Shown here piece by piece: positions 12,632-36,623 of a stretch of DNA of 64,000 bases. The DNA comes from Prosthecobacter fusiformis (GTDB taxonomy: Bacteria; Verrucomicrobiota; Verrucomicrobiia; Verrucomicrobiales; Verrucomicrobiaceae), in assembly GCF_004364345.1 (NCBI RefSeq), contig NZ_SOCA01000001.1, positions 248,001-312,000 of the forward strand, written 5' to 3'. The position numbers and the translations under genes are program-made. Position 1 is the stretch's first letter. Every line of letters begins with the position of its first letter. The notes beneath the pieces are model-generated. The model did no database searches. It was given only the letters and a program-made list of their open reading frames with translations, and had not been told where the DNA came from.

Positions 12632-12637
12632 ACCGCC

Positions 12638-13855
12638 TCACTTCACATCCCGCCACAGCCAGGTCAGCGCCTCTGGCAGATGCGGAGCCATGCCACGGCT
12701 GCCATGGAAGCACTCCGTCCAGTCCACCCTGTAGTCATAATTCATGTACTTCAGGCTCGCTTCCATCATCCGGTTCGCCAGCGGCCAGTTGCCAAATTTG
12801 TTATCCAGGTCATTCACCCCATCCAGCAGATACACCCGGATCGGCTTCCGCTCCGTCACCCGCAGCAGATACGGATACGCATTGCCACCACGGATGTCCA
12901 CAAACGTGCCCACCCAGCTCAGCACCTTGTGAAATTTGTCAGGCCGTTCCCATGCCGCCGTAAACGCACAAATGCCGCCGGAGGACCCTCCCGCAAGGCC
13001 CCTGGCCTCAGGCTCCTGGCGGAATTTCACTCCATAACGCTTCTCCACCTCAGGCAGAATCTCCGTGAGCAAAAACCGACTGTAGGCATCCCCTAGGCTG
13101 TCATACTCAGCCCCCCGGTTCGCCGCCTTTTCTCCAGGCTTTTGGTTAGGCCTGCGGCCCGGATCAATAAAGACCCCAATCGTCACCGGCATCTTCTTTT
13201 GGTGGATTAGGTTATCGAAGACCGTGCTCGCCCGCATGGATCCCTTTGGGTCCACATGTCGCCCGCCATCCTGCCACACCATCAGGCACGCCTCCTCGCC
13301 CGCCTTATACTGCTGCGGGATATACACCGTCACCCCACGATGCGTCTCCGGGAAAACCTGGCTCTCATTCCAGTCAAACTTCTCCAGCTTCCCCACCGGC
13401 ACCCCCGCCTGCGGCTCACTGTCCGCCGTGTATTCATAATGCTCCAGGTGCACCATGCCAGCCACCCGCGCCATTCCCTCCACCTCGATGCGGTAGTTAA
13501 ACTCCTGAAAATTCGCCATCTTCTGCACCAGCACTTGCAGCCCGTCATCCCCCACCCGCACCATTTCACCGATCAGCGTCCCATTCCCCCGCACCACCCG
13601 TGCCGCGCCCATGTCCATGATCGCCCAGGCCACCGTCGTTCTCTCCACCTTCGTTCCGGGCTTGCCCTTCAGCAGATTCTGTTTTCCAAACAGGCGCACC
13701 ACATCGTTATGGATCTTCTCCAGCTGACTCGCATCAGGAGAAGCTGCCAGCGCCTGCTGGATCTTCACCGGCGATGACAGAGGAGCAGGCACAGGCCCCT
13801 GGGCTTGGAGAGCAGAACAAAAGGCAAGAGTATATAAAAGCGGACGCCAAAACAT
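12638..13855 (-). CDS. Exported esterase of the enterochelin-esterase type
   Basis: The protein has 405 residues from the ATG at 13855; a TTG two codons earlier is possible. It has a short signal peptide (LLYTLAFCSALQAQ). The C-terminal alpha/beta-hydrolase domain (about 180-400) has the nucleophile elbow GGSSGG, a candidate Asp in LLDGVNDLDN and a candidate His near the C-terminus (CFHGSRGMAPH). The ~170-residue N-terminal part resembles the beta-rich cap of Fes/IroE-like esterases. Homologues in PVC bacteria are often called enterochelin esterase, but no siderophore genes are nearby, so a carbohydrate ester is equally possible. It is convergent with metR, 6 bp away. Confidence 0.75.
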   Translation of the reverse strand: MFWRPLLYTLAFCSALQAQGPVPAPLSSPVKIQQALAASPDASQLEKIHNDVVRLFGKQNLLKGKPGTKVERTTVAWAIMDMGAARVVRGNGTLIGEMVRVGDDGLQVLVQKMANFQEFNYRIEVEGMARVAGMVHLEHYEYTADSEPQAGVPVGKLEKFDWNESQVFPETHRGVTVYIPQQYKAGEEACLMVWQDGGRHVDPKGSMRASTVFDNLIHQKKMPVTIGVFIDPGRRPNQKPGEKAANRGAEYDSLGDAYSRFLLTEILPEVEKRYGVKFRQEPEARGLAGGSSGGICAFTAAWERPDKFHKVLSWVGTFVDIRGGNAYPYLLRVTERKPIRVYLLDGVNDLDNKFGNWPLANRMMEASLKYMNYDYRVDWTECFHGSRGMAPHLPEALTWLWRDVK

Positions 13856-13959
13856 GGCCAACTAAACGCCCGCAATCCCCAACCCTTTCGATGAATCCAA
13901 CGCCTGCGTGCAGAGATTCACCAAGCCTTTCTCTCCCCACACGCCCAGCCCCTTCATCA

Positions 13960-16900
13960 TCAATGCGTCTCCGCCTTCGGGACCGGCTCTTCCACCTTCG
14001 GTGCCCCGCTGATTTTTTCCGCCAGCGTCTGCACCATCACATACAGCCACGGGATAAAAAACACCCCGATCACCGTCGCCGCCGTCATGCCAAAGCACAC
14101 CGCCGTCCCCAGGCTTTGCCGGCTCGCTGCACCCGCACCACTGGATAGCACCAGCGGCACCACCCCCAGGATAAACGCCAGCGAGGTCATCACAATCGGC
14201 CTCAATCTGAGCTTCGCCCCTTCCAGTGCCGCCTCCTGGATACTCATGCCCTCCTCACGCCTCGTGCGCGCAAATTCCACAATCAAAATCGCATTTTTCG
14301 CCGCCAACCCCAGCAGCATCACCAGGCCGATCTGCACATACACATCATTCGTCAGCCCCCGCAGCCACGCCGCCATAAACGCCCCAAAGATACCAATAGG
14401 CAGCCCAAACAGCACCGCAAAAGGCACCGCCCAGCTTTCATACTGCGCCGCCAGCACCAGGAAAACAAAGAGCAGCGCCAGGCCAAAAATCGTTGTCTGC
14501 TGCCCCGATGCCTCTTTCTCCTGCAGCGCCGTTCCCGTCCACTCATAGCCATACCCTTCCGGCAGATGTTTCTTCGCCAGATCCTCCATCGCAGTGATGA
14601 CCTGCCCAGAGCTCACCCCCGGTTTCCCCGTCGCACTGATCTCCGCCGTCCGGTACACATTGTAATGCGGCAGCAGGTCAGACCCCGTGACCGTCTCCAC
14701 CTTCGCAAACGTGCTGAACGGCACCATGCCCCCTTCCGCATTGCGCGTATAGATCCCGTAAATGTCCTCAGGCTTCATCCGGTATTCCGGCTCCGCCTGT
14801 ACCTTCACTTGAAAACTCCGCCCAAACAGCGTCAGGTCATTCACATAGATACCCCCTAGATACGCCTGCAAGGATGAGAACACCCCGTCCAGCGGGATAC
14901 CCAGCGTCTTGATTTTATCCCGGTCGAGCTCCACAAAAGTCTGCGGCACCCGCGTACTATAAAAGCTAAAGACGCGCGCCAGTTGCGGATGCTCCGCCGC
15001 TGCTCCTAGAAACTGGTCCGCCACCCCCTGCAATTGCTGCGGCGTCCCCCCGCTCCGGTCCTGGAGTTCAAACTGCACCCCTCCCGCATTCCCCAGCCCC
15101 TGGATCGGCGGCGGTGCCGTCGGGATCACCATCCCCTCCGGGATCTGGCTCACTCTCGCAAAAATTGAAGGCACAAGCTGCCCCACCTGCATGGACGGAT
15201 CCGTCCGCTCCTTCCAGTCCTTCAGCGAAACAATGCACACACCAGCGCTCGAGCTCCGCGCACCACTGAGCAAATTCAGCCCGCCGATCGTGATCACATC
15301 CTTCACCCCCGGTGTTTTTCCCAGGATGTCCTCCACCTTCCTCAGCACCTTGTCCGTCCTCTCCTGCGAGGCCCCGTCCGGCAGCGTCGTGATCACAAAC
15401 ATATACCCCATGTCCTCATCCGGCAGGAACGACGTCGGCAGCCGGTTCAGCAGCCCGATGATCCCCGTATAAATCCCCAGTAGCAGCACCGCCGCGATCA
15501 CCGCATACCGCATCATCCACCGGCATATCTTCACATAGCTTCCCGTCAGCCGGTCAAACCAGCGGTTAAAAACACCCAGCAGCCGCCCCATCGGCCCCTT
15601 CGTCTCTTTTCTTGGCCGCAAAAGCATTACACACAGCGCCGGCGTCAGCGAAAGCGCCACCAGCGCCGAAAGAATCACCGAGACAGACAACGTCATCGCA
15701 AACTGCTGATACAACTTCCCCGTGATCCCTCCCATGAAGGACACCGGCACAAACACCGAGCACAGCACCAGCGCGATGGCGATCACGGGCCCGGAAACCT
15801 CATCCATCGCCTTCTTCGTCGCCTCCAGCGGACTCAGCCCATGCTCGATGTGATGCTCCACCGCCTCCACCACCACGATCGCATCATCCACCACGATCCC
15901 GATCGCCAGCACCAGCGCGAACAGCGTCAGCGTATTGATCGTAAAACCCAGCGCGCCAAACAGCGCAAACGTTCCGATCAGCGAAACCGGCACCGCCAGC
16001 ATCGGGATGAACGTCGCACGCCAGTTCCCCAAAAAGATAAACACCACTAGCACCACCAGTACAAACGCCTCCGCCAGCGTATGCATCACCTCCTCCAAAG
16101 AGGCCGTCACAAAAAGCGTCGTGTCAAAGCTCACCTTCGCCACCATTCCCGGCGGAAAGCTCTTCGAAAGCTCCTCCATCCGCTCCCTGCACGCCACCGC
16201 CGTATCCAGCGCATTCGCCGTCGGCAGTTGAAAAATACCGATCAACGCCGCCGGAGATCCATTGATCCTCCCAAAGCTCGCATAGTCTTTCCCTCCCAGC
16301 TCCGTACGCGCCACATCACGCAGCCGCACCACCGTGCCGTCCGTCAGCGTCGTGATCACGATCTCGCCAAATTCCTCCGCATTCACCAGCCGCCCCCTCA
16401 CATTCACAGAGTACTGAAATTCCGTCCCCTTCTCCGCCGGTGGCGCACCGATCTGCCCCGCCGCCGCTTGGATGTTCTGCTCCTGCAGCGCCCTCGTCAC
16501 ATCCGTCGCCGTCAGGCCCAGGTTCGCCAGCTTGTCCGGCTGCAGCCACACCCGCATGGAGTAATCCTTCTGCGTGAAAATGTTCACCGCTCCCACCCCC
16601 GGCACACGCGCCATCTGCGGCTGCAAATTCAGGAATGCATAGTTATTTAGGAACAGGTCATCATACTCGCCGTTCTCAGAACTCACCGCAAACACCAGCA
16701 GCATGTCCGGGGATTGTTTCGTCACCGTGATCCCGTTCTTCACCACATCCGCTGGCAATCTTGATTGCGCACGCGCCACCCGGTTCTGCACATCCACCGC
16801 CGCGTCATCGATGTTTTTCCCCACTCGGAAAGTCACCTTGATGCTGCACTGCCCGTCACTCGTACTCCCGCTGGACATATACAGCATGTCCTCCGCCCCG

Positions 16901-17109
16901 TTGATCTCCTGCTCCAGCGGAGACGTCACCGTCTCCTCCACCACCTGCGAGCTCGCCCCCGGATACACCGCCGTCACCTGGATCGTCGGCGGCGTCATGT
17001 TCGGGTAGCGGGCGATAGGCAGCCCCGTCAGCCCCAGCCACCCCACCAGCACGATGAGGATGGACAGCACCATCGCGAAGACGCGGCGTTTGATAAAGAA
17101 ATGAGCCAT
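13960..17109 (-). CDS. RND multidrug efflux permease (AcrB/MexB type)
   Basis: The protein has 1049 residues, normal for the HAE-1 family. It is a trimeric inner-membrane proton/drug antiporter with twelve membrane helices and two large periplasmic loops. TM4 carries the Asp408-Asp409 pair (VVDDAIVVVE), matching AcrB Asp407/Asp408 in proton relay. The N-terminus FFIKRRVFAMVLSI is typical. It follows the adaptor gene after 25 bp in the same direction. No outer-membrane factor or TetR repressor is in the window, so the pump presumably uses a TolC-like channel encoded elsewhere. Confidence 0.95.
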   Translation of the reverse strand: MAHFFIKRRVFAMVLSILIVLVGWLGLTGLPIARYPNMTPPTIQVTAVYPGASSQVVEETVTSPLEQEINGAEDMLYMSSGSTSDGQCSIKVTFRVGKNIDDAAVDVQNRVARAQSRLPADVVKNGITVTKQSPDMLLVFAVSSENGEYDDLFLNNYAFLNLQPQMARVPGVGAVNIFTQKDYSMRVWLQPDKLANLGLTATDVTRALQEQNIQAAAGQIGAPPAEKGTEFQYSVNVRGRLVNAEEFGEIVITTLTDGTVVRLRDVARTELGGKDYASFGRINGSPAALIGIFQLPTANALDTAVACRERMEELSKSFPPGMVAKVSFDTTLFVTASLEEVMHTLAEAFVLVVLVVFIFLGNWRATFIPMLAVPVSLIGTFALFGALGFTINTLTLFALVLAIGIVVDDAIVVVEAVEHHIEHGLSPLEATKKAMDEVSGPVIAIALVLCSVFVPVSFMGGITGKLYQQFAMTLSVSVILSALVALSLTPALCVMLLRPRKETKGPMGRLLGVFNRWFDRLTGSYVKICRWMMRYAVIAAVLLLGIYTGIIGLLNRLPTSFLPDEDMGYMFVITTLPDGASQERTDKVLRKVEDILGKTPGVKDVITIGGLNLLSGARSSSAGVCIVSLKDWKERTDPSMQVGQLVPSIFARVSQIPEGMVIPTAPPPIQGLGNAGGVQFELQDRSGGTPQQLQGVADQFLGAAAEHPQLARVFSFYSTRVPQTFVELDRDKIKTLGIPLDGVFSSLQAYLGGIYVNDLTLFGRSFQVKVQAEPEYRMKPEDIYGIYTRNAEGGMVPFSTFAKVETVTGSDLLPHYNVYRTAEISATGKPGVSSGQVITAMEDLAKKHLPEGYGYEWTGTALQEKEASGQQTTIFGLALLFVFLVLAAQYESWAVPFAVLFGLPIGIFGAFMAAWLRGLTNDVYVQIGLVMLLGLAAKNAILIVEFARTRREEGMSIQEAALEGAKLRLRPIVMTSLAFILGVVPLVLSSGAGAASRQSLGTAVCFGMTAATVIGVFFIPWLYVMVQTLAEKISGAPKVEEPVPKAETH

Positions 17110-17134
17110 AGCGTGGGTTCTCCGGCGGATGGTT

Positions 17135-18343
17135 TTACTTCGTCTGCGTACCGGCTTCCGGCACCTTCTTCTCAGGCGCAGCCGCCGCCGGTTCCGCCCC
17201 CTCCTCCTGCGGATTCACCACCATCCCCGGACGTGCCTTCTGCACCCCTTCGATGATCACCCGCTCCCCCTCCTTCACCCCGCTTGTCACGATGAACTGG
17301 TCATTAAACCGCCCATCCGTCTTCACCGTCCGCTGCTCCACCTTGTTCCCCTCGCCCACCACCAGCACAGATTGCAGGCTCTGCGTCTCCGTCACCGCAC
17401 GCTGCGGCACCAGCAGCGCATCCGGCTTTTCCTCAGGCTTCGCCCTCACCCGCGCAAACTGCCCCGGCCTCAGCAGATGCTCATCATTGGGAAAACTCAC
17501 CTCGATCTTCAGCGTCCCCGTCCGTGGGTCCAGCGCCCGGTCCGCAAACTCAAACTGCCCCTTCCGGTCATACACCGAGCCATCACTCAAAATCAGTTCA
17601 AACTCCATCTTCGCACTGTGCTCATCCCTCGCCGCATCATCCCCCATGAACCGACGTTGGAAGCGCAGGTAATTCTGCTCCGCCACATTGAAGACCACCC
17701 TCATCGGGTCCGTCGTTGATATCGTCGCCAGCAGCATCGTGTCCGCACTGCTTCCCACAAAGTTTCCCACATCCACATTGCGCGCCCCGATCATCCCGTC
17801 AAAAGGCGCCACCATCGTCGCATAGCTCAGGCTCAGTTCCGCCGTCGCCAGCGCCGCCTTCGCCGCCAGCAGGTCCGCATCCGCCAGCTTCGCTGTCGTC
17901 GCCGCATTGTCACTCTCCTGCTTGGAGATCGCGCTAGACGCCACCAGGGGTGCCAGCCTCACCATGTCCGCCCGCGCCCGCTCCACACTCGCCTCCGCCT
18001 TCGCCACATTCGCCTTCGCCTGGTCCACCGCCGCTTCATACGCCCGCTTGTCGATCTGAAACAGCAGATCCCCCTTCTTCACCAGACTCCCCTCCTTGAA
18101 AGGTGCCTCCGTGATGAACCCCGTCACCCGCGCCCGGATCTCCACCGTCTCCGCAGACTGCGTCTGCCCCACATTCTCCACATAGATCGGCACCGTCTCT
18201 TTCGTCACCTTCCCCACAATCACCGCCGGTGGCGGCGGCGCAGGCGGTGCCTCCTCCTTCGGTTGACAGCCCACCATCAGCACACAGCCCGTCAGAGCCG
18301 CCAGCATCCACGACGAAGAAAAGAAACCCGTGATCGCGTTCAT
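17135..18343 (-). CDS. RND periplasmic adaptor lipoprotein (membrane fusion protein)
   Basis: The protein has 402 residues from the ATG at 18343; longer in-frame starts add a Gly-rich stretch that overlaps repeat A and are rejected. The signal peptide ends in a lipobox (LMVGC, Cys26; Cys20 is an alternative). The AcrA/MexA parts follow in order: barrel-sandwich/biotinyl-lipoyl halves (VEIRARVTGFI... and LSYATMVAPFDGMIGARNVDVG), a central alpha-helical hairpin (AYEAAVDQAKANVAKAEASV...), a beta-barrel, and a Pro/Glu-rich C-terminus. It links the RND permease to an outer-membrane channel. Confidence 0.93.
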   Translation of the reverse strand: MNAITGFFSSSWMLAALTGCVLMVGCQPKEEAPPAPPPPAVIVGKVTKETVPIYVENVGQTQSAETVEIRARVTGFITEAPFKEGSLVKKGDLLFQIDKRAYEAAVDQAKANVAKAEASVERARADMVRLAPLVASSAISKQESDNAATTAKLADADLLAAKAALATAELSLSYATMVAPFDGMIGARNVDVGNFVGSSADTMLLATISTTDPMRVVFNVAEQNYLRFQRRFMGDDAARDEHSAKMEFELILSDGSVYDRKGQFEFADRALDPRTGTLKIEVSFPNDEHLLRPGQFARVRAKPEEKPDALLVPQRAVTETQSLQSVLVVGEGNKVEQRTVKTDGRFNDQFIVTSGVKEGERVIIEGVQKARPGMVVNPQEEGAEPAAAAPEKKVPEAGTQTK

Positions 18344-18448
18344 GAGAAAGTACAAGAGCATCTCGCACACACATTGCCAGACATTCCCACCCATTAAAAC
18401 GCACACACCCCCTCCCCCGGCCCCCTTTTTTCCCATCACCTCCCCCCC

Positions 18449-18586
18449 AAAAGTAGCCCGCTCAGTCCCTGAGCGGATAGCCCCTCGAAACTCCCCCAAC
18501 CCTCCTACCACCCACCCATTATCGAAGCTCCCAGCCCCACTCCCCTCATATCAATCCTGCAAATCCTGTAATCCTGTCCAAAAAAG
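18449..18586. repeat. Intergenic repeat block 1 (A1, C1)
   Basis: A1 (18449-18496) holds the hairpin CCGCTCA-GTCCC-TGAGCGG followed by TAGCCCCTCGAAACTCC. C1 (18546-18586) holds tandem AATCCTG units and ends TCCAAAAAAG. The B element found between A and C elsewhere is missing. The block fills the gap between the RND adaptor and the 3D-domain lipoprotein gene, and all elements point the same way as in the other blocks. Confidence 0.8.
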
Positions 18587-18604
18587 CTCCCTCTCCCCCG
18601 CCCC

Positions 18605-19315
18605 TCACAACGAAGCCGTCATCGGCCCCCTAAGCGCCTCCGCCGTCACCTGATACACCTGGGTTTCGATCTCATCCACCATCCGCCGCACATGCGGCCA
18701 CCGGGTGCGCTCACGCATGATCTCCATGCTCTTCCGGTAGGACCCCCACTGCAGCACCTCGATGTCCACATGCCGCACCCCCCAGTCATTCATCATCCCC
18801 TGCGTCGGCTTATAGAGATCAATCGTTCCCGTACCCACCAGCGCACTCCCATAATCATCCACCTCATAAACCACATCCGGTTGTCCAGCGATACGGAATC
18901 GCGTCCCCACCGGATACCTCGACCAATCCGCCGCCGCGCTCCGCACCGCCCCGAATTTCAGCGGCGTTCCCAGCGCATTCTTCACCCCATAGACGATGTG
19001 ATCATCCTCATCATGGCAGTAAGCCGTCGTCCTCACCGTCATCCGGCGGCCAGGGATCTGCGCCGCCGCCATCAGCGGCGGTCTCGGAGCATCCATCACA
19101 AAATAATACCGCTTCAGCTCCTGCGGGCGGAATGGCACCCCCGCCGCCAGCGCCTTGCGCACCTCATACCTCGTCCCCGGCTGCAAAGGCACCCCCTCCT
19201 TCGGTTGCGGACTCGCCCACCCCACCAGTTCCAGCGGGGATAACGCACACGAACTCAACGAAAAAACCGCCACCACCGTCGCGATAGACCAGCAAAAAAG
19301 GCGCTGTGTGCTCAT
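18605..19315 (-). CDS. 3D-domain lipoprotein (double-psi beta-barrel, MltA-like)
   Basis: The protein has 236 residues with a lipoprotein signal peptide (SLSSC, Cys23). The C-terminal half has the 3D domain named for three conserved Asp: YEVDDYGSA and GTGTIDLY are plainly visible, as in the MltA lytic transglycosylases and Bacillus YocH. The likely role is peptidoglycan binding or cleavage at the envelope; the fold does not fix the reaction. The upstream sequence is AT-rich. The gene lies between repeat blocks 1 and 2. Confidence 0.75.
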   Translation of the reverse strand: MSTQRLFCWSIATVVAVFSLSSCALSPLELVGWASPQPKEGVPLQPGTRYEVRKALAAGVPFRPQELKRYYFVMDAPRPPLMAAAQIPGRRMTVRTTAYCHDEDDHIVYGVKNALGTPLKFGAVRSAAADWSRYPVGTRFRIAGQPDVVYEVDDYGSALVGTGTIDLYKPTQGMMNDWGVRHVDIEVLQWGSYRKSMEIMRERTRWPHVRRMVDEIETQVYQVTAEALRGPMTASL

Positions 19316-19420
19316 GATATATTTTTGATTTCGAGATAATCTACCAAGAATTTAACCAAACAGCAATAAAAACCATAATATTCATCACCTTTAAGCACTC
19401 TCAGCCCCCCTCCAACCAAT
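19316..19420. other. AT-rich upstream region of the 3D-domain gene
   Basis: This is about 100 bp of AT-rich DNA in an otherwise GC-rich stretch. It probably holds the promoter of the leftward 3D-domain gene; several TATTAT/TAGATT-like hexamers occur on the minus strand but none pairs with a good -35. It ends where repeat block 2 begins. Confidence 0.35.
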
Positions 19421-19632
19421 TGTAGCCCGCTCAGTCCCTGAGCGGACAGCCACCTCGAAGCCCCCCAACCTTCCAACTCCGCCTCCTCTGCTCCTCCGCC
19501 CCTCTGCGGCCAACCGATGACAGCATAACGCCCAGTTCTCGCCGCAGATTAGCCAAAGATAGCTCCCCACCCTCGAACCCCCTCACACAGCTTACCTTCC
19601 TGTGAATCCTGCAAATCCTGTCAAAAAAAGCC
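19421..19632. repeat. Intergenic repeat block 2 (A2-B1-C2)
   Basis: This is the clearest single A-B-C unit. A2 (19421-19470) has the hairpin CCGCTCAGTCCCTGAGCGG. B1 (19472-19570) has an 8-bp inverted repeat, TCTGCGGC at 19503-19510 and GCCGCAGA at 19541-19548, around a ~30-nt loop. C2 (19588-19632) has tandem AATCCTG units and ends TCAAAAAAAG. The block lies upstream of the terminase-like gene. Confidence 0.85.
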
Positions 19633-19758
19633 CTCTCCACTTTTTTCCCCACTTAGCCCAAGTCCCCCTCCTCCCCCCTTGCACAATCCCCATCCCCTCC
19701 CCGATCTTCCCCCGGCCAACCATCATCACAAAACATCATTAAATAAAGCCTTTTTCAG

Positions 19759-19797
19759 CCTCCTGTTAATCCTGCCAATCCTGTCAAAAAAAGCCCT
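19759..19797. repeat. Solitary C-type repeat (C3)
   Basis: A copy of the C element (CCTGTTAATCCTGCCAATCC, then TGTCAAAAAAAGCC) stands alone about 55 bp upstream of the terminase-like start codon. Because it ends in a run of A, its complement would give a T-run, but no stem precedes it, so a terminator role is doubtful. Confidence 0.7.
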
Positions 19798-19852
19798 TTT
19801 TCCCCGACTACCCTTCTCATCCCTGCCCACAAACATCCATAAACATCATCCC

Positions 19853-20731
19853 ATGAACACCCTTCCAGACCCCCGCCACGAAGCCTTCTCCCGCCTCCTC
19901 GCCAGCGGTCACGATTTCCCTTCCGCCTATGTCCACGCCGGTTACAGCGTCAAAAACATCAAAACCCGCTCCCGCCAGCTTGCCAGCCACCCCGCCATCC
20001 GCGCCCGTGTCGCCCACCTCCAAAAATGCCTCCCAGAGATCAACGACCTCCAGCAGCATTTCGCCCCCTCCCTCCGACTCATGCCCGAGACCCAGGATCA
20101 AATGCTCGCCTGGCTCTGGCAGGTCATGAATGGCACCCGCAAAGTCCTCCCCCTCCAGCTTCGCGCCGCCACCCTCTTCTGCCGCCTCAAAGGCTGGCAC
20201 CTCACCAAGCCTCTCCCCGCCGAGCAGCAGCCCCAACCCAAAGCCGCCCACCTCACCGACCTCGAACAAACGCTCCTCGCCGGCCTCAACCGCCAAAACA
20301 TCGCCCAGGAACTCACCGGCCTTCCCACCCCCACCGGAGCCATCGACCAATTCCGCTCCCAAATGGCCGATCTCGACCTCATCGCCTACTTTGACTCCCC
20401 CCAGACCCGCCCCTACCCCCAGCCCATCCCCGAATCCGAACTCCCCAATCTCCTCCCCACCCCCAAACCAGCCCCTCCTCCTATTCCCCCCACTGAAATC
20501 GCCCATCTCGAAGACCGACTAACCTCCCTGGAAACCGAAATCACCACCCACCTCACCCTCCATCGCCATCCCCCCATCACCTCCCCCAAACCCCCAAATG
20601 GGGAACCAACATCCCCACCCCAATCCATTGATCCACAACCCTTTATCCCCCTAAATCCCCAAATGGGGAAAAAATCCACCCCCCATCCCTTACCCCCCAC
20701 CCTCTACCCCCACAAAAAAACCGCCTCCTAA
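19853..20731 (+). CDS. Terminase small subunit-like HTH protein, orphan
   Basis: The protein has 292 residues from the ATG at 19853; an in-frame TTG at 19679 would read through a C repeat. Residues 4-60 (DPRHEAFSRLLASGH..., AYVHAGYSVKN..., ASHPAIRARVAHLQ) match the N-terminal HTH pattern of phage terminase small subunits, which bind packaging sites. A middle helical part (about 75-130) follows, then a Pro/Thr-rich low-complexity tail to the C-terminus. No large terminase, portal or other phage gene is near, so packaging is unlikely; perhaps a domesticated DNA-binding protein. The coding strand is strikingly C-rich. A/B/C repeats lie on both sides. Confidence 0.6.
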   Translation: MNTLPDPRHEAFSRLLASGHDFPSAYVHAGYSVKNIKTRSRQLASHPAIRARVAHLQKCLPEINDLQQHFAPSLRLMPETQDQMLAWLWQVMNGTRKVLPLQLRAATLFCRLKGWHLTKPLPAEQQPQPKAAHLTDLEQTLLAGLNRQNIAQELTGLPTPTGAIDQFRSQMADLDLIAYFDSPQTRPYPQPIPESELPNLLPTPKPAPPPIPPTEIAHLEDRLTSLETEITTHLTLHRHPPITSPKPPNGEPTSPPQSIDPQPFIPLNPQMGKKSTPHPLPPTLYPHKKTAS

Positions 20732-20744
20732 CCCGCCCCACCTC

Positions 20745-21156
20745 AAAAAGTAGCCCGCTCAGTCCCCTGAGCGGACAGCCACCTCGAAGCCCCTCCTTAC
20801 CATCCAGCGATCACTCCAACTCCGCCTCCTCTGCTCCTCCGCCCCTCTGCGGCCAGCCGATGACATCATAACGCCCAGTTCTTGCCGCAGAGTAGCCAAA
20901 GATAGCTCCCCCACCCACCTCAAAAAGTAGCCCGCTCAGTCCCCTGAGCGGACAGCCACCTCGAAGCCCCTCCTACCATCCAGCGATCACTCCAACTCTG
21001 CCTCCTGCTCCTCCGCCCCTCTGCGGCCAACCGATGACATCATAACGCCCAGTTCTCGCCGCAAAGTAGCCAAAGATAGCTCCCCACCCTCGAACTCCCT
21101 CCCACAGCTTACCCTGCTGTTAATCCTGCCAATCCTGTAATCCTGTCTAAAAAACC
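20745..21156. repeat. Intergenic repeat block 3 (A3-B2-A4-B3-C4)
   Basis: This is a tandem duplication of the A-B unit followed by one C. A3 spans 20745-20796, B2 20811-20912, A4 20921-20975, B3 20990-21088 and C4 21101-21156. The A hairpins are CCGCTCA-GTCCCC-TGAGCGG. B2 has arms CTCTGCGGC (20845-20853) and GCCGCAGAG (20884-20892), extended by one pair over B1; in B3 one arm has decayed. The two A-B copies are nearly identical, which suggests recent duplication. The block fills the gap between the terminase-like gene and the large PQQ/LamG gene. Confidence 0.85.
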
Positions 21157-21223
21157 TGCCCTCCCAAACCTCCTCTCGAAACATCCCTCCCCGCCCCACG
21201 TTTCAGCGTCACCACGCCTCACC

Positions 21224-24200
21224 ATGAACCGCCCTCTGCTCGCCCTGCTTCTCTCCATCACCGCCCCCCTCTGGGCCGATGACGCCGCCGACATCCTCCA
21301 GCAATCCGGCGTCCAGGGCGGCATCATCGTCCATGTCGGTTGTGGCGATGGCACCCTCACCACCGCCCTCAAAGCCAGCGACCGCTACCAGGTCCAGGGC
21401 CTCACCCAGGACACCGCCGCCGTTGCCAAAATCCGCGAAAGCATCCACACCACCGGCAGCTACGGCAACGTCGCCATCGAAAGCTGGGACGGCAAATACC
21501 TCCCCTACATCGAAAACTTCGTGAACCTCCTCGTCATCGAAGATCCCTCCGTCTCCAAAGAGGAAATCGACCGCGTCCTCACCCCGCTCGGTGTCGCCAT
21601 GACGCGCAAAAACGGCCAGTGGGAAAAGACCGTCAAGGCCTGGCCTAACGGCATGGATGAATGGACTCACTACGCCTACGATTCCAAAGGCAACACCACC
21701 TCCAGGGACATGCTCGTCGGTCCTCCCACCCGCATGCAGTGGGTCGGCAATCCCCGCTGGAGCCGTCACCATGACCGCATGTCCTCCGTCAGCGCCAAGG
21801 TCTCCTCCGGTGGTCGCATCTTTTACATCATGGATGAAGGCAGCCGCATCTCCATCCTCATGCCTGCGAAGTTCATGCTCATCGCCCGAGATGCCTTCAA
21901 TGGCACCATCCTCTGGAAGAAACCCATCCCCCAGTGGAGCACCCACCTTTGGCCCCTCAAGTCCGGCCCCACCCAGCTCACCCGCCGCCTCGTTTCCATT
22001 GGCGATAAAGTCTATGTCACGCTCGGCATCGCCGCCCCCGTTTCCTGCCTCAATGCCGCCACCGGCGAGCTCATTCGCGAATACCCCCAGACTGCGGGCA
22101 CTGAAGAAATCATCTACCGCAACGGCACCCTCTTCGCCCTCGCCAACCAGGAACCCTGGCGTCTCAACGACGAATTCTCCGTCAAAGCCCAGAGCGACCA
22201 AAAACGTGTCGAAACCGAGTTCAACTGGGATGGCAAACCCCGCAACCTCTTTGCCATCAATGCCGAATCTGGCGAAACCCTCTGGAAAAAAGAAGACCGC
22301 ATCGCCCCCGTCACCCTCTGCCTCGATGACAAACGCATCGTCTATTACAATGGCGACGGCCTCGCCTGCCTCGACGTGAAAACAGGCGAAACCAAATTCG
22401 CCGATGTCCCCGCCCAACGTCGCAAGCTCTATGAGTTCAACTTCGCCCCCCGCGTCCTCCTCCACAATGACATGATTCTCTACGCAGGTGGCGATGGCAG
22501 CATGAAAGGCGTCAATGCAGACACCGGCAAAGACATCTGGACTGCCTCCCATGAAAAGAGCGGATACCGCAGCATGGAAGACCTCATCGTCGCCCAAGGC
22601 CTAGTATGGAATGCAGGAACCCTCAGCGGCAATCAAAGCGGTGAATACACCGGCCGCGATCCCCTCACTGGCGAGGTCAAAAAACAATTCTATCCCGACG
22701 TCCCCGAAGGCACCTACTGGTTCCACCACCGCTGCTACCAGGCCAAGGCCACCGAAAAATACCTCATGCCCTCACGCACCGGCATCGAGTACGTGGACAT
22801 GGAAAAGCAGCATTGGGATCTCAATCACTGGGTCCGTGGTGCCTGCCTTTACGGCGTACTGCCCGCCAACGGCCTCACTTATGCCGGCCCGCACAACTGC
22901 GCCTGCTACCCCGAGGCCAAGCTCGATGGCATGGCCGTCATGGCCTCCGCACCCCGTTATCCCCTGCCCCCTTCCACACCTGATGCCCAGCGCCTAACCA
23001 AAGGTGCCGTTTATGCCGATCCGGTGGCAGAAGTCGCAGCCGACAGCAAAGACTGGCCCACCTACCGCGCCGATAACTCCCGCAGCGGCTCCTCCAGCCA
23101 GGACCTCAAAAAAGACCTCGGCATGGCCTGGGAGGTCAAGCTCACCCCACCCCTCACCACCACCTCCAGCGCCGCTGGTCTCACCTTCGTCGCCGAGACG
23201 GACAAGCACACCCTCCACGCCTTCGATTCCGCCACCGGCCAAGCCGCCTGGCACTTCATCGCTGGAGGCCGCATCGACTCACCACCCAGCTACTGGCAGG
23301 GCCGCATTTATGTGGGCGGCAAAGACGGTTACGTCTATTGCCTCCGCGCCAAAGACGGAGCCCTCCTATGGAAATTCCAAGGCGCGCCCAGCCCGCTCAG
23401 CCATGCCGCCTGGGAGCAGATGGAAAGTGTCTGGCCCATCCACGGCAGTGTCCTTGTGGAAAACGGCCTCGTCAGTTTCGTCGCCGGGCGTTCCTGCTTC
23501 CTGGATGATGGTCTCTGGTTCTACCGCCTCGATGCCCGCACCGGAGAAATGAAGGTCAAGGAGCATTACGATGACCGCGATCCCGACACTGGCGGCGACC
23601 TCAATGATCGCCACAAGACTCTCCAGATGCCCGTCGCCTCCAATGACATCCTCAGCAGCGATGGCCACTGGACTTACCTCCGCACCCAAAAGATCGGGGC
23701 CGATGGCAAGCGCGTTGAAATCGGACCCGTGTCCGGAGATTTCGACAAGCAGGGCGGTGCCCATAAAGGCGAGGGCCAGCACCTCTTCGCTCCCATGGGT
23801 TTCCTGGACGATTCCAATTTCCACCGCAGCTACTGGGTTTACGGCAAAAGCTTCGCCGGAGGTCACGGCGGATACTTCCAGGCCGGCAAGTACGCTCCAG
23901 CAGGCCGCATCCTCGTGCACGATGACAAGAACGTATACTCCTACGGTCGCGAGGCCCAGTATTACAAGTGGACCACCACCATGGAATATACCCTCTTCTC
24001 CACTCCCAAAGGAGCTCCGGATGAAGCTTATGACACCGCCTCCGCCACCACCGAGCGCAAAGGCAATTCCGTCGTCCTCGGCCCTGACGGCCAGCCCCTC
24101 GCCCAGCAGCCCGCCAAAGAAACCCAGGTCGGCCATAGCGAAACCATGAAGGCCAAAGCTGCCGCCAAAAAGAAAGGCAAGGGCAAAGGTAAGGGTAAAG

Positions 24201-25234
24201 GTAAAGGCGCAGCCGTTGCCAAAGGTCAGCCCGTCCCTGGCAGCGTCCAGTTCCCCGATGCTGACCTCCTCGATCCTTCCCAGACCGCTCTCACGGTCGA
24301 AGCCTGGGTCCTCCCGGATACCGCCAGCGGCACCATCCTGCACCATGGCGGCCCCCTCCAGGGCGTCGTCCTGGACATCCGCGAAAAGAAACCCCAGTTC
24401 CACGTCCGCAGCTCCTCCAAAGTCACCACCATCGTCTCCCCCGAAGCTCTCACCGACGGCTGGCACCACATCGTCGCCACCCTCGCCGAAGACAAGAGCA
24501 TGAGCCTCTACCTGGACGGTAAGCTCGTCTCCCAAGGCCTTGCCAGTGACCTCATTGCCTCCCGCCCCAAAAACCCCCTCCTTCTCGGCCAGGGTAAGGG
24601 TGCTGCCGATGGCGATGCGGGCGGCTTCAGCGGCCTCATGGACCAGTTCGCCCTCTACCACAAAGTCCTATCCCCTGCCGAAGTGGAATCCCGTTTCGCT
24701 GCCCCCGATACCCGTCCCGCCGATGCTGTTCTCGTCTGCAACTTTGACAATGGCGATTCCCGCGACAGCTCCGGCAACGACCTTCATGGCGTCGGAGCTG
24801 GCGTCGAAACGGGCAAAGGCAAAGTCGGTGCCGCCCTCTGGTTTAAAGGCACCTCCAGCAAGCCTGGCAAAGCCGGTGGCAGCTTCGTCAAACACACCTG
24901 GGACCGTTACGTCCCCATCGTCGCCCGCAGCATGGCCCTCGCCGGTAACACCCTCTTCGTCAGCGGCCCCCCGGATACCATCGATGAAGAATACGCCTTC
25001 GAACGCCTCGCCGCCCGCGACCCCGAAATCCTCAAAGAACTCGCCGAACAGGACGCCGCCCTCAGTGGCGAACGCGGTGCCAAAATGTGGGCCGTCAACG
25101 TCGAAACCGGCGAGCAAAGCGACGGCCTCGAAATCACCAGCCCCCCCGTCTGGGACGGCATCACCGTCGCCCAAGGCCGCGTTTACGTCAGCACCATGGA
25201 CGGCCGCCTCCAATGCTTCGGCAAAGACCCATAA
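21224..25234 (+). CDS. Exported methyltransferase-like / PQQ-propeller / LamG fusion protein
   Basis: The protein has 1336 residues. A signal peptide (about 1-18) is followed by a Rossmann-like part (about 25-130) with HVGCGDG at 37-43 and a distal VNLLVIEDP, as in SAM-binding class I methyltransferases. Many PQQ/quinoprotein-type blades fill about 140-960, with GTILWKK- and GETLWKK-like strands. A Lys/Gly linker (about 981-997) leads to a LamG/concanavalin A-like domain (about 1000-1160, GWHHIVATL, LYLDGKLV); a final blade follows (VSTMDGRLQCFG). The LamG part is thus inserted in the propeller. Such propellers are abundant in PVC bacteria; the substrate is unknown. The gene stands alone between repeat blocks 3 and 4. 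Confidence 0.72.
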   Translation: MNRPLLALLLSITAPLWADDAADILQQSGVQGGIIVHVGCGDGTLTTALKASDRYQVQGLTQDTAAVAKIRESIHTTGSYGNVAIESWDGKYLPYIENFVNLLVIEDPSVSKEEIDRVLTPLGVAMTRKNGQWEKTVKAWPNGMDEWTHYAYDSKGNTTSRDMLVGPPTRMQWVGNPRWSRHHDRMSSVSAKVSSGGRIFYIMDEGSRISILMPAKFMLIARDAFNGTILWKKPIPQWSTHLWPLKSGPTQLTRRLVSIGDKVYVTLGIAAPVSCLNAATGELIREYPQTAGTEEIIYRNGTLFALANQEPWRLNDEFSVKAQSDQKRVETEFNWDGKPRNLFAINAESGETLWKKEDRIAPVTLCLDDKRIVYYNGDGLACLDVKTGETKFADVPAQRRKLYEFNFAPRVLLHNDMILYAGGDGSMKGVNADTGKDIWTASHEKSGYRSMEDLIVAQGLVWNAGTLSGNQSGEYTGRDPLTGEVKKQFYPDVPEGTYWFHHRCYQAKATEKYLMPSRTGIEYVDMEKQHWDLNHWVRGACLYGVLPANGLTYAGPHNCACYPEAKLDGMAVMASAPRYPLPPSTPDAQRLTKGAVYADPVAEVAADSKDWPTYRADNSRSGSSSQDLKKDLGMAWEVKLTPPLTTTSSAAGLTFVAETDKHTLHAFDSATGQAAWHFIAGGRIDSPPSYWQGRIYVGGKDGYVYCLRAKDGALLWKFQGAPSPLSHAAWEQMESVWPIHGSVLVENGLVSFVAGRSCFLDDGLWFYRLDARTGEMKVKEHYDDRDPDTGGDLNDRHKTLQMPVASNDILSSDGHWTYLRTQKIGADGKRVEIGPVSGDFDKQGGAHKGEGQHLFAPMGFLDDSNFHRSYWVYGKSFAGGHGGYFQAGKYAPAGRILVHDDKNVYSYGREAQYYKWTTTMEYTLFSTPKGAPDEAYDTASATTERKGNSVVLGPDGQPLAQQPAKETQVGHSETMKAKAAAKKKGKGKGKGKGKGAAVAKGQPVPGSVQFPDADLLDPSQTALTVEAWVLPDTASGTILHHGGPLQGVVLDIREKKPQFHVRSSSKVTTIVSPEALTDGWHHIVATLAEDKSMSLYLDGKLVSQGLASDLIASRPKNPLLLGQGKGAADGDAGGFSGLMDQFALYHKVLSPAEVESRFAAPDTRPADAVLVCNFDNGDSRDSSGNDLHGVGAGVETGKGKVGAALWFKGTSSKPGKAGGSFVKHTWDRYVPIVARSMALAGNTLFVSGPPDTIDEEYAFERLAARDPEILKELAEQDAALSGERGAKMWAVNVETGEQSDGLEITSPPVWDGITVAQGRVYVSTMDGRLQCFGKDP

Positions 25235-25245
25235 CCCCCACCCAA

Positions 25246-25515
25246 TAAAAAGCAGCCCCCCTCAGTCCCCTGAGCGGAAAGCCACCTCAAAACTCCTCAT
25301 GCCTCCTTCCTTCCCGCCCACCCTCGAAGCTCCTCAAAAAGTAGCCCGCTCAGTCCCCTGAGCGGAAAGCCACCTCGAAGCCCCTCCCACCCTCCTAACA
25401 CCACTCCAACTCCTCCTCTGCCCCTCTGCCCCTCTGCCCCTCTGCGGCCAACCGATGACAGTATAACGCCCAGTTCTTCCCGCAGAGGAGCAAAGTAGCA
25501 AAGATAGCTCCCTCC
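25246..25515. repeat. Intergenic repeat block 4 (A5, A6-B4)
   Basis: A5 (25246-25297) is a diverged A element. A6 (25335-25389) keeps the hairpin CCGCTCAGTCCCCTGAGCGG. B4 (25404-25515) has the arm pair CTCTGCGG and CCGCAGAG and an extra tandem expansion of CCCCTCTG on its left side. No C element follows. The block lies just past the large PQQ/LamG gene and before the convergent end of the next leftward gene. Confidence 0.85.
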
Positions 25516-25553
25516 TTTCACAACTACCTTCATCCATTTTACCTATTTTCGCC

Positions 25554-26240
25554 TTACTCCGGAACCACCACTTCCGGGATGATAACGGGCGCACTCTGCC
25601 CAATCCGGCCACTATACAGGTCAATCGTGCGCCGGGCCAGAATATCAATGATCGCCGGCTGCAACGTGCGTGCCGCCACATTCGATACCGCCACTCCTGC
25701 CCAGACCATGGGGGACTTATACTTCACCACCTGCCACACCGGCAGCAGCCGCTTATACCATTTCCCAGCCGTCTGCATTGCCTCATGCGTGGCGATCTTA
25801 TGTGTCATCTCCCACGTCTTCAAAGCCGTGCTCGCACTCACATCCACCAGCCTGCCGATGGACCGAGTCTGCAGAAAGTCCGAGATATCCATCGCCGCCA
25901 AATGCACCGCCCGGCTGAACTGGCTCAGCCCCGGTGCCAGCAGCGGCTCCGGATGTTGCGGATGATAGATCCGGGCGATCTCACGCACCAGTCTCGGCAC
26001 CTCATCAACCAGAGGCGGCAGCCACTCCGGATTCATGCGCTTCTGCCAGCGCAACCGGTTCTTGCAAGCCTCCACCGTGCGCTTGGCCTCGACGTCCTTG
26101 GGCGATTCCGCCGCATTCATATACCCGGCCACCTCAGCCCTCACCGCCTTGATATCCATGATAAAACGGAACGCCATCCACAGCAGCCACGTCGCCGTGC
26201 CACAGATGAAACCCGCCAAAAAGGTAAGAAGGTAGGTCAT
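25554..26240 (-). CDS. Unknown membrane-anchored protein
   Basis: The protein has 228 residues. One N-terminal membrane helix (about 3-27, YLLTFLAGFICGTATWLLWMAF) anchors a mostly alpha-helical, basic soluble part. A second hydrophobic patch (about 175-200, VWAGVAVSNVAARTL) may touch the membrane. I recognise no family. It is the last gene of a leftward run radC-pabA-unknown (70 bp after pabA), so it may be cotranscribed without sharing function. Confidence 0.65.
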   Translation of the reverse strand: MTYLLTFLAGFICGTATWLLWMAFRFIMDIKAVRAEVAGYMNAAESPKDVEAKRTVEACKNRLRWQKRMNPEWLPPLVDEVPRLVREIARIYHPQHPEPLLAPGLSQFSRAVHLAAMDISDFLQTRSIGRLVDVSASTALKTWEMTHKIATHEAMQTAGKWYKRLLPVWQVVKYKSPMVWAGVAVSNVAARTLQPAIIDILARRTIDLYSGRIGQSAPVIIPEVVVPE

Positions 26241-26309
26241 GGAAGGAGCGAAATCCTGTTTGTCAAAAACACCGGCAGGCCCTTCACCAGGACCTCCCCG
26301 GCCAGTTCT

Positions 26310-26879
26310 TCACATCTCCAGGAAGTTCCTCAGCAGTTTCTTGCCCTCCTGCGTCAGGATGGATTCTGGATGGAACTGTACCCCATGAATCGGCAGTTCC
26401 TTGTGCTTCAGCCCCATGATCTCGCTCTCATCATCCCCCGCCACCGCCGTGATCTCCAGGCAGTCCGGCAATGTATCCCGCTTGACTAACAAAGAATGAT
26501 ATCGCGTGGCCGTAAACGGCTGCGGCAGATCCTTAAACACCGACTTGCCCGTATGCTCAATGACCGACGTCTTCCCATGCATGAGGCGGCCCGCCCTCAC
26601 CACCTCGCCACCAAACACATGCCCGATGCTCTGATGCCCCAGGCATACTCCCAGCACCGGTGTGCTCTGCCCGAACGTGCGGATCACATCACAACTGATA
26701 CCCGCCTCTTTCGGCGTACAAGGCCCTGGCGAGACACAGATATGGTCCGGCTTCATCTTGGCGATTTCCTCCAGGGTGATCCGGTCATTCCGGTGGATCT
26801 CCATCTGCGCCCCCATCTCGCCAAAGTATTGGACGAGGTTGTAGGTGAAGGAGTCGTAATTGTCGATGATCAAAAGCAT
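26310..26879 (-). CDS. Glutamine amidotransferase of anthranilate/aminodeoxychorismate synthase
   Basis: This 189-residue TrpG/PabA protein supplies ammonia from glutamine to a chorismate-using synthase for tryptophan or folate. The class I triad is visible: Cys79 (GVCLGHQ), His170 and Glu172 (QFHPES). The N-terminal [14 protein letters not shown] is typical. TrpG and PabA cannot be told apart by sequence alone, and in many bacteria one protein serves both. No trpE/pabB or other trp gene is adjacent. It follows radC by 51 bp. Confidence 0.95.
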
Positions 26880-26930
26880 GGCTCTCGAACCATCCGCTCA
26901 CGTCTCCGAAATGCAAGTTTCGCCCTCGAC

Positions 26931-27626
26931 TCAGATCATGCCGTTTTCCCGGAAGCTGAAATACGGCTGCCCCCGGTTCTCCCCAGGCAGGCCGATGATT
27001 ACATGATCCACAAAATTCAGCCCCAAAATCTCCGCCCCCTCCTTCAGCCTCCGCGTCAGCGTCTTGTCCGCCGCGCTCGGGCTCGGATCCCCCGATGGAT
27101 GATTGTGCACCAGTGCGAAACCAAAGGCCTTATGCACAATCGCCACCTGCAAAATCTCGCGCGGATGCGCCACCGATTCATTCACAGTCCCACGAAAAAG
27201 CTCCTCGTCCCTCTGCAAATGCAGCCGGGTATTCACCAGCAGCACCCGCACCGATTCATGCGCCAAGCATTGCATTTCCGCCGCCAGATACCTGTAAATC
27301 AGCTCCGGTGCATTCATCGGCACCTCCCTGGCCCATTCCCGCTCTGCCCGTTTACCGATCTCAAAAGCCGCCGCCAGATGCGCAGCCTTCGCCGGTCCCA
27401 GCGCCCGGGAGGATGCCAGCTCCGCCGGGCTGGTGCGCGAGAGCTGCCTCAACGTGCCCACCTCTCGCAAAAGCCGCTGCGCCACCTGGATCGCATTCTC
27501 CCCCTTCATCCCTGTATTGATAAAGATGGCCAGCAGTTCCGCATCCGTCAGCACCCCCGGCCCCAGCCGCAGCAGGCGCTCACGTGGACGGTCTTCCTCG
27601 GGCAGGTCATGAATACGATGGCTCAT
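26931..27626 (-). CDS. radC: RadC-family JAB/MPN-domain protein
   Basis: The protein has 231 residues. An N-terminal helix-hairpin-helix-like part (about 1-95) precedes the RadC/JAMM domain with HNHPSGD (His174, His176) and Asp187 (SPSAAD), the set of zinc ligands of JAMM metalloproteases. Despite the name, a direct role in DNA repair has been questioned, and its activity is not established. It starts the leftward run with pabA and is divergent from the HupE gene over about 95 bp. Confidence 0.93.
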   Translation of the reverse strand: MSHRIHDLPEEDRPRERLLRLGPGVLTDAELLAIFINTGMKGENAIQVAQRLLREVGTLRQLSRTSPAELASSRALGPAKAAHLAAAFEIGKRAEREWAREVPMNAPELIYRYLAAEMQCLAHESVRVLLVNTRLHLQRDEELFRGTVNESVAHPREILQVAIVHKAFGFALVHNHPSGDPSPSAADKTLTRRLKEGAEILGLNFVDHVIIGLPGENRGQPYFSFRENGMI

Positions 27627-27721
27627 TCCACCTAAAAAGGCGGATGACCCCAGCTCTGAAAAGTGAAAAATGAATACACCGCGCCAATTCCCACCGTTAT
27701 GCTCCCTCCGCCCTGCCCCGA

Positions 27722-28366
27722 ATGCTAAAAAGTATCCATACCCTCCTCATCCTGCCGCTCCTCCTGCTCCTGGGGCTCAATGAGGTTATACCTGCGGATG
27801 GTATCGGCGTATTCGACCTTCAAATCTTCCGTCAGGAACTTGCCTCCGGCTTCAGCCACATCCTGCCCGACGGACTGGACCACATCGCCTTTATACTCGG
27901 TCTATTCTTCCTTTCGCGCACCCTGCCCATCCTGCTCATCCAGACCACTCTCTTTACCCTCGCCCATTCCCTCATGCTCGGCGTGGTTATCCTGACCGGT
28001 TTGAAAGTCCCCAGTCATTGGGTGGAAATCGGCGTCGGCCTCAGCATCGCCATCCTCGCCCTCGAAGGCTTATACCCCACCCGGCTGGAGCGCTGGCGCC
28101 CTCTCATGATCCTCCTCTTTGGAGGTATACACGGCCTCGCCTTTGCCCACAGCCTTATTCAGCAAACCAGCATCCGCACCAGTCCCATCGCCGCCCTGTT
28201 CGGGTTCAATCTCGGTGTCGAACTGGGCCAGCTCGTCCTCATCTTCGGCTTGGTAGCCATCTTCAGCCCCTGGTGGCAGCGCACCTGGTATCATACCCGC
28301 ATCTGCCTCCCCGCCCTCACCCTCATCGCCCTCTCCGGCCTCCTCTGGGCCTGGGACCGCTGGTAA
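27722..28366 (+). CDS. HupE/UreJ-family membrane protein
   Basis: The protein has 214 residues and about six hydrophobic helices. The conserved loop has His46, Asp50-Gly51 and Asp53-His54 (HILPDGLDHIAF), the metal-binding pattern of the HupE/UreJ nickel/cobalt permease family. No hydrogenase or urease gene is in the window, so nickel or cobalt transport is inference; the adenosyltransferase 17 kb away gives only a weak hint of cobalt use. The stop lies 6 bp from the convergent tRNA gene. Confidence 0.85.
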   Translation: MLKSIHTLLILPLLLLLGLNEVIPADGIGVFDLQIFRQELASGFSHILPDGLDHIAFILGLFFLSRTLPILLIQTTLFTLAHSLMLGVVILTGLKVPSHWVEIGVGLSIAILALEGLYPTRLERWRPLMILLFGGIHGLAFAHSLIQQTSIRTSPIAALFGFNLGVELGQLVLIFGLVAIFSPWWQRTWYHTRICLPALTLIALSGLLWAWDRW

Positions 28367-28371
28367 CAAAG

Positions 28372-28445
28372 CGCGCCCGGCTGGATTCGAACCAGCGACC
28401 ATCGGATTAGAAATCCGGTGCTCTAATCCACTGAGCTACGGGCGC
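28372..28445 (-). tRNA. tRNA-Arg (anticodon UCU)
   Basis: The full cloverleaf can be drawn on the minus strand. The acceptor stem GCGCCCG/CGGGCGC is perfect, the D-stem is GCTC/GAGC, the anticodon loop TTTCTAA gives anticodon UCU, and the T-arm is GCTGG-TTCGAAT-CCAGC. The anticodon stem has one C-A mismatch at pair 27-43. The discriminator base is G, and the 3' CCA is not encoded. It reads AGA codons. Confidence 0.95.
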
Positions 28446-36331: not shown

Positions 36332-36623
36332 AGGCGCGGCTAGACGTAAACTGCTCAAAGCGAGACTCGACCAGCCAGAGGGAGACCGGCCAAAGCACGC
36401 CATTCACTTCCCCGGCTTCGTAGGAATCCGGGAATTGTCATGTCAGACTGGATGAAATGGGTGCAAGACTCCCTGAATCCGGCAGCATGGGAGGATTTCT
36501 CTTGTCCATTGGCTCCATGCGCATTTCATTTAGCTGCGCCTAGCGGCTTCTTCACGTGTGGCACGAATTCAGCTTCTTCCCTTTTCCACTCCTACTTAGT
36601 CTGCTTTTTCCAGGTCGCCTGGC
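36332..36623. other. Divergent intergenic region
   Basis: The 292 bp separate the start of the leftward giant gene from the start of the rightward LytTR regulator and presumably hold both promoters. No clear -10/-35 pair, palindrome or small ORF was seen. A cAACGCTGGGAAT-like direct repeat, the usual LytTR site, was not found here. Confidence 0.35.

Follow-up and report, generated by a model that had tools for sequence, protein, structure and literature searches.

One-way intergenic repeats at the centre of a lineage-specific strand-skew island in Prosthecobacter fusiformis

Results

A block of repeats lies at the peak of a strand-skew island

The DNA analysed here, called the window, is a stretch of 64,000 nucleotides of Prosthecobacter fusiformis (contig NZ_SOCA01000001.1, positions 248,001 to 312,000 of the forward strand). 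It contains a block of short intergenic repeats of three families, A, B and C, at 18.4-25.5 kb, and all copies in the block lie on the + strand. Four intergenic gaps (18341-18604, 19316-19852, 20732-21223 and 25235-25553) contain every match to the three patterns, and no match was found outside the block within the 64 kb. The gaps are surrounded by genes for an HlyD-type efflux protein (-), a 3D-domain protein (-), a terminase-small-subunit-like protein (+) and a PQQ_2/laminin-G protein (+), and a further gene adjoining the block (228 aa, -) has no Pfam match. The neighbouring genes are of mixed direction, and therefore the direction of the repeats is not set by that of the genes. The island and the repeats are as follows.

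12500-28400 (about 12.5-28 kb), no strand: strand-skew island; + strand C-rich at silent sites in genes of both directions
18453-18495, +: REP A copy 1; GTAG head, hairpin and conserved tail
18553-18584, +: C element copy 1; tandem AATCCTG and A-run
19422-19463, +: REP A copy 2
19472-19568, +: B copy 1, decayed palindrome
19597-19629, +: C element copy 2
19759-19792, +: C element copy 3; ends about 60 bp upstream of the terminase-like gene
20750-20790, +: REP A copy 3
20812-20912, +: B copy 2
20927-20968, +: REP A copy 4
20988-21085, +: B copy 3
21122-21154, +: C element copy 4
25252-25290, +: REP A copy 5; head decayed to GCAG, read directly in the sequence
25341-25382, +: REP A copy 6
25402-25512, +: B copy 4

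The order along the block is A-C, A-B-C, C, A-B-A-B-C and A-A-B. Five copies of A have an intact 17-base head (starts 18453, 19422, 20750, 20927 and 25341, all +), against a chance expectation of 0.20 with up to three mismatches allowed, and a sixth, decayed copy is readable at 25252-25277. Family B has four copies, all +, against 0.00 expected. The search for the C pattern gave six matches against 0.73 expected; two of them are shifted registers, and the four sites (18553, 19605, 19768 and 21122) are all +. An earlier, sequence-only reading of this DNA had placed the families in these gaps and nowhere else in the window, with uniform orientation and an A-B-C order, and all of this was borne out, with counts above chance. 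Its four copies each of B and C were also found, while its six copies of A are five intact ones and one decayed. It caught the one-way orientation but missed the strand-skew island that lies behind it.

The GC skew of the + strand falls to -0.43 at 18-22 kb, and the repeat block lies at the peak of the island. At third codon positions, the + strand skew is -0.45 to -0.74 between 11.7 and 25.2 kb, in minus- and plus-strand genes alike, and the gene beyond the tRNA at 28.4 kb has a value of +0.27. Two sister genomes, G019 and G034, hold the orthologues from 12.6 kb on in the same order, with 78-95% protein identity. The skew of these orthologues is -0.28 to +0.26, except for the gene at 27.7 kb (-0.46 and -0.45; -0.53 here), and that of the beta-propeller orthologue in eight further genus members is -0.32 to +0.11, as compared with -0.64 here. 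The orthologous 34-kb stretches of G019 and G034 gave no match to the A, B and C patterns. The island ends near the tRNA (28372-28445), where the synteny of both sisters ends too. Beside this tRNA lies the gene for a 2612-aa repetitive protein (28565-36403), for which no match was found in the sister stretches compared.

Silent sites of the island have turned to C on one strand

Substitutions were assigned at four-fold sites, with the base common to G019 and G034 as the ancestral one. Although parsimony is approximate where sites are saturated, the asymmetry described here is too large to come from parsimony error. On the branch of P. fusiformis, 374 of the 686 changes at 1937 four-fold sites were G to C. 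The sister branches had 5 of 167 and 9 of 156, with 64 and 50 changes of C to G; this latter excess is partly expected, because the counts require P. fusiformis to keep the ancestral base. No movement towards C was seen on the sister branches. In the island core, C had replaced 73% of 456 ancestral G, about 61-62% of 80 A and 70% of 60 T, and 87% of 541 ancestral C were kept. The fraction of G turned to C was 0.57-0.88 per 1-kb bin and dropped to 0.40-0.54 at 25.5-28 kb. No strong preference for the neighbouring base was detected in the G to C changes (0.56-0.90 by neighbour).

A second island, at C1:655-662.7k, also carries A and C. In two of its genes, 83% of 65 ancestral G had become C and 90% of 71 C were kept. 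The four-fold skew of four genes there is -0.73 to -0.94 (-0.08 to -0.37 in G034), and the skew stops at the next gene (-0.13), inside a block of the same gene order in both sisters. The genes of the second locus were split into two island and two control genes after the skew edge was visible; the four genes pooled, before the split, gave 47% of 133 G turned to C and 73% of 147 C kept. The three control genes, two of which are the flank of the second island, gave 19% of 113 and 66% of 163, respectively. In the first control block synteny was lost, with one usable gene remaining, and a paralogue of 31% identity was excluded from the pooled control. In two-way comparison, six genes outside the islands showed 103 changes of C to G and 77 of G to C at 1242 sites. 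A second set of four genes showed 139 versus 33 at 735 sites, but this set is not neutral because its gene L200 is skewed oppositely here (+0.67 versus -0.49 in G034). Changes to C versus from C at codon positions 1 and 2 were 111:65 and 33:8 in the islands and 19:7 in the controls; the controls also gain C, and therefore no island-specific claim is made for these positions. For a gene on C12 that was picked for another island, no orthologue was found in the sisters.

A fixation-like bias at silent sites that weakens from a centre is reminiscent of GC-biased gene conversion, from which the island differs in being strand-asymmetric and in moving to C instead of to G plus C. A strand-asymmetric form of biased conversion could act at oriented recombination hot spots, where the same strand always invades and C mismatches on it escape repair. 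Ancestral C was kept more often in the island (472/545) than in the controls (108/163; p 2e-8), besides being gained, and the weakening with distance is hot-spot-like. However, a strong mutational bias with multiple hits would also keep C, A and T go to C as well, and of the three control genes, two border the second island and were separated from it once the skew was visible. We regard this explanation as doubtful.

The skew alternates along the chromosome in patches

Over C1:1-525k, of which 517 kb was read nearly contiguously, the skew alternates in patches of 10-40 kb, and the largest skew over 3 kb, -0.67, is at the block of the window. Gene models were a simple choice of open reading frames. 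Adjacent genes on opposite strands share the strand skew in this region (rho 0.56, n=113), as they do in all loci of the genome that were examined (rho 0.58, n=220). The correlation was 0.35 in G034 (n=64) and 0.29 in G019 (n=30, p 0.12), where the stretches were mostly chosen around C or A matches, so that their skew statistics are not random samples; it was -0.25 in stretches of three other genus members (n=19, p 0.29) and -0.53 in a stretch of E. coli (n=13, p 0.06). Twenty stretches of the own genome chosen regardless of repeats had a mean absolute third-position skew of 0.18 and a 95th percentile of 0.43, and therefore high skew is not rare in this genome.

Replication-associated GC skew is likewise a strand-wise excess independent of gene direction, and ordinary skew of this kind, fragmented by rearrangement, could in principle give the islands. 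On the + strand at 14-26 kb, the GC skew is negative and the AT skew mostly mildly positive, which is lagging-strand-like, and the loss of synteny near the tRNA would fit a rearrangement. On the other hand, within C1:1-525k the sign flips at intervals of 10-40 kb, the second island ends on its right inside conserved gene order, and the same genes in the same order in the sisters, apart from that at 27.7 kb, lack the skew. The island is local, lineage-specific and repeat-centred, and replication skew would have to account for values down to -0.94 at four-fold sites of the second island. This explanation is quite improbable.

Family A is a GTAG-type REP

Family A is a repetitive extragenic palindrome (REP) of the GTAG type. 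GTAG REPs are described as having a GTAG head, an association with a REP-associated tyrosine transposase (RAYT) and a single, paired or clustered layout, and O. terrae is given there as a verrucomicrobial species rich in GTAG repeats (Di Nocera 2013, PMC3733652). In A, GTAG stands directly 5' of a short palindrome, the hairpin loop is TCCC or shorter, and the tail is like CCTCGAAGCCCC in most copies; the stem changes are matched among subfamilies. The genome-wide search proposed in the sequence-only reading showed that the families are not local, with 34 exact copies of A in the 5.83-Mb genome (22 forward and 12 reverse) and 31 matches of the C pattern. A reversed A control pattern gave no match in the same genome. 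With free stem positions, the A pattern matched 42 times in the own genome and 81 times in G034, and no match was found in the other 54 of the 56 genomes searched.

The own genome has 14 Y1-transposase matches. The candidate RAYT gene at C1:328k (locus L022) is flanked by a stem variant of A (GTAGCCTGCACAGTCC...) with a similar tail; its product scores 26 bits against PF01797 (cut-off 23) and 55.9 bits against NF047646, below the cut-off of 80. Its relative in G034 (locus L175), 69% identical, sits within an A array, so that A is close to such a gene in both genomes. In seven REP loci of G034, 25 of the 32 plus-strand A copies are paired with an inverted copy no more than 300 bp away, versus only two such inverted (head-head) pairs in the examined sequence of the own genome, both at the RAYT gene. 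With its GTAG head, its short stem-loop, the nearby RAYT and the inverted pairs of the sister, A resembles the GTAG REPs, bacterial interspersed mosaic elements (BIMEs) and REP doublets forming hairpins (REPINs) treated in PMC3733652. RAYT recognises the hairpin plus GTAG and cleaves at CT on single-stranded DNA (ssDNA), as described in PMC8266576. By analogy, A may be mobilised by the RAYT, an HUH transposase acting on ssDNA. The proposal of a non-autonomous mobile element thus fits A, which has the GTAG head and the hairpin, is associated with a RAYT and is missing from the orthologous locus in two sisters, while the statement that the repeats resemble neither a known insertion sequence (IS) nor a REP was wrong for A. 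Elsewhere, an array of GGAG hairpins in both orientations (locus L015, 1036-2631) flanks another Y1-transposase match on both sides. A REP pair array of G034 (L185, 6762-7266) is absent here, and just 16 bp, at C1:294419-294435, lie between the ends of the matches to the same two genes.

The orientation of the repeats follows the local skew

The values of local skew come from third codon positions in predicted genes up to 4 kb away, and the repeats therefore do not enter the measure. The orientation counts for the own genome cover about 1.0 Mb of 5.8 Mb, partly chosen around repeats, and include 34 of the 34 exact and 41 of the 42 free-stem A copies, the one outside being C3:533855. The locally C-rich strand carries A in 46 of 46 cases (54 sequence sources) and, in a count that also considers clusters, in 45 of 45 copies and 19 of 19 clusters; cluster counts treat patches as independent. 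A looser A pattern gave 69 matches, 56 of them on the C-rich strand; the other 13 are two at the RAYT gene and 11 without the GTAGCC head, and 7 of the 56 look like chance too. C is on the C-rich strand in 28 of 30 cases with the stricter pattern; five relatives gave 27 of 32. The most frequent 10-mers of A, of C and of E, a further family described below, were found in skewed gaps at 9-14 loci on the C-rich strand and at 0-1 on the opposite one.

Base composition alone might orient the repeats, if the RAYT cleavage sites CT and CA are commoner on the C-rich strand or if reverse copies erode there. In 139 pieces of skewed gaps the CT:AG ratio is 1.35 and the CA:TG ratio 1.73, in the four gaps of the window the counts are 150:85 and 146:45, and G is depleted in the right arm of B. 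However, composition predicts about 57-63% agreement (64-76% with the values of the window) versus 19 of 19 clusters, and under erosion young reverse copies would remain, while the surviving A copies are intact. We give this explanation a small chance.

The mean skew, oriented by A, is about -0.40 at A clusters and declines in either direction within 8-10 kb. Past 8 kb on the 3' side it is close to zero, and on the 5' side it is -0.08 to -0.16 (standard error 0.08-0.16) to 20 kb. A skew that is centred on A and whose sign tracks A orientation could mean that the REPs cause it, with RAYT repeatedly nicking the GTAG strand and nick repair biasing substitution around REP clusters. Against this, 29 of 54 A copies in the G034 loci examined are at an absolute skew below 0.2, though paired copies could cancel, strong skew also occurs in stretches without A, and other families are oriented too. 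Moreover, intact A cores have seven G each and keep them where 73% of silent G became C; A is therefore probably younger than the skew, or maintained. The A copies are probably not the cause of the skew, and a causal role of the RAYT appears distinctly unlikely.

Families B and C

Family B is a decayed palindrome that is losing its second arm, and not a maintained fold. The folding energy is just -8 to -27 kcal/mol in nine of 12 copies, as compared with -43 to -55 in the other three (L072, L199 and L200). With the structure of L199 (37 pairs) as reference, 13-23 pairs form in the nine copies, while two intact copies form 25 and 27. Just 12 of 376 cells are double changes by which pairing is preserved. 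The suggestion that B is a structured RNA found no support, and paired changes do not maintain its arms; at gathering thresholds Rfam matched the tRNA alone in the window, with nothing for B or C. The right arm contains 4-13 G in the nine copies, which are on C-rich strands, versus 17-19 in the three stable copies. The B strand of L199 and L200 lies in G-skewed DNA (+0.40 and +0.37), and L072 in unskewed DNA; on this ground B may have decayed by the drive to C. The long forms of B (L199 13153, -; L200 8858, -; L072 5635, +) are stable palindromes at least about 95 nt long, and their loop region is related.

Family C is a widespread short repeat of many phyla. Of 288 genomes sampled from the phylum, 63 carry it, and it also occurs in bacteria of distant lineages and in archaea of the genus Methanoperedens. 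A literature text search for its sequence gave two matches, both unrelated. In at least 8 of the 80 loci listed (L257-L336), the AATCCTG repeat stands in inverted pairs with a spacing of about 40-90 bp. C was rejected as a cross-phylum marker of skew: in 80 loci of at least 118 stretches, 22 holding both orientations were dropped, and 29 of the 58 single-orientation loci were on the C-rich side. For C loci of the phylum (up to 3 kb) the count was 15 of 23, with 7 dropped. The most skewed cross-phylum C loci (L264, L268 and L299) belong to two Verrucomicrobiaceae metagenome-assembled genomes (H1_MAG_00048 and CE-Jul18-43), where C is on the C-rich strand at -0.32 to -0.47.

Other oriented repeats and the terminase-like gene

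Family E, which is independent of A, is a double hairpin, read as GGAG-headed and followed by GTCTTGTGCGTCCCGCGCAAGAC, with sites at C12:29436, 47562, 62326 and 82804, C1:473849 and others. It is on the C-rich strand in 23 of 24 copies and 16 of 17 clusters. The same strand carries the palindrome D in 7 of 7 cases, AATCTTTCTACC in 8 of 8 and CTGAGCACTGAG in 18 of 23. Two features of the window belong here.

19853-20731, +: terminase-small-subunit-like gene, from profile matches
20592-20669, +: palindrome D (CCCCAAATGGGGA), two copies (20592-20604 and 20657-20669), within the 3' end of the terminase-like gene

D is repeated in the genome; it also occurs at 63667-63679 of the window and at 3' gene ends in L428-L431. 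Five of the seven terminase-like genes have it in their 3' end. The gene between the repeat groups had been called terminase-like, and its profile matches suggest a terminase small subunit: all seven members match phrog_51 at E values up to 0.1 (best 1.7e-8), and two, the window member not among them, match PF03592 (best 2.6e-4). Among 56 genomes, long copies occur in the own genome (3) and G034 (4), the same two that carry A, and none was found at this locus in the 34-kb stretches of G019 and G034. The strand of the gene is C-rich in six of the seven (-0.42 to -0.56), and the locus of the seventh, located at the end of a contig, has a skew of -0.24. An AATCCTG repeat lies about 70-300 bp upstream in the same direction in five of the seven, as two separate motifs in one of them.

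Discussion

The same orientation is seen in two REP-like families with different heads and in other repeats besides, and this suggests that it reflects a property of the island. At the islands, one strand may recurrently be exposed as ssDNA; the exposed strand would let REP insertion take one orientation, and the exposure would bias substitutions on that strand. We tentatively favour this explanation, in which the repeats have accumulated at the island centre, at somewhat less than an even chance. ssDNA is favoured as the common cause because Y1 transposases require it (PMC6006769). IS200/IS605 elements, treated in the same source, resemble the present case in their HUH Y1 transposase, their ssDNA substrate and a preference for one strand (IS608 and ISDra2); their strand is set by replication forks, whereas here the strand follows patches of 10-40 kb with alternating sign. 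Two possible routes from ssDNA to C are compatible with the substitution data, namely a mutational bias acting through multiple hits and a conversion bias that is strand-asymmetric.

Several observations weigh against recurrent exposure of one strand as the common cause. During ordinary replication it is the G-rich strand that is exposed as the template of the lagging strand, whereas the top strand of A is on the C-rich one. The two A copies at the RAYT gene oppose a weak local skew, and two intact B copies are on the G-rich strand. C fits less well than A, with 32 of 37 copies and 22 of 27 clusters by the looser pattern, and outside the family its orientation does not follow skew, as the 29 of 58 loci show. 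The strongly skewed stretches C1:345-357k, 411-426k and 234-240k have no A or C match. In G034, most A copies are in inverted pairs irrespective of the skew, and of the 54 copies in the loci examined, 29 are at an absolute skew below 0.2.

The pattern of the island was matched to no described process, and a full-text literature search on skew gave no match on such skew among the papers listed (titles and abstract starts, with subscription papers mostly not covered). That the genus has an undescribed strand-asymmetric process, which since the sister split has turned silent sites on one strand to C over patches of 10-20 kb, with unrelated repeats settling in an orientation set by the strand, seems to us evenly poised between true and false. 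If it is true, the repeats are markers of where one strand is exposed or processed. The REP family is in itself ordinary. A REP orientation that reads out a local strand asymmetry, with neither present at this locus in two sisters, would give a handle on when and where chromosomal ssDNA arises, and the conversion of 73-83% of silent G to C on one strand, in genes of either direction, calls for a force that is not obviously supplied by replication skew or GC-biased conversion.

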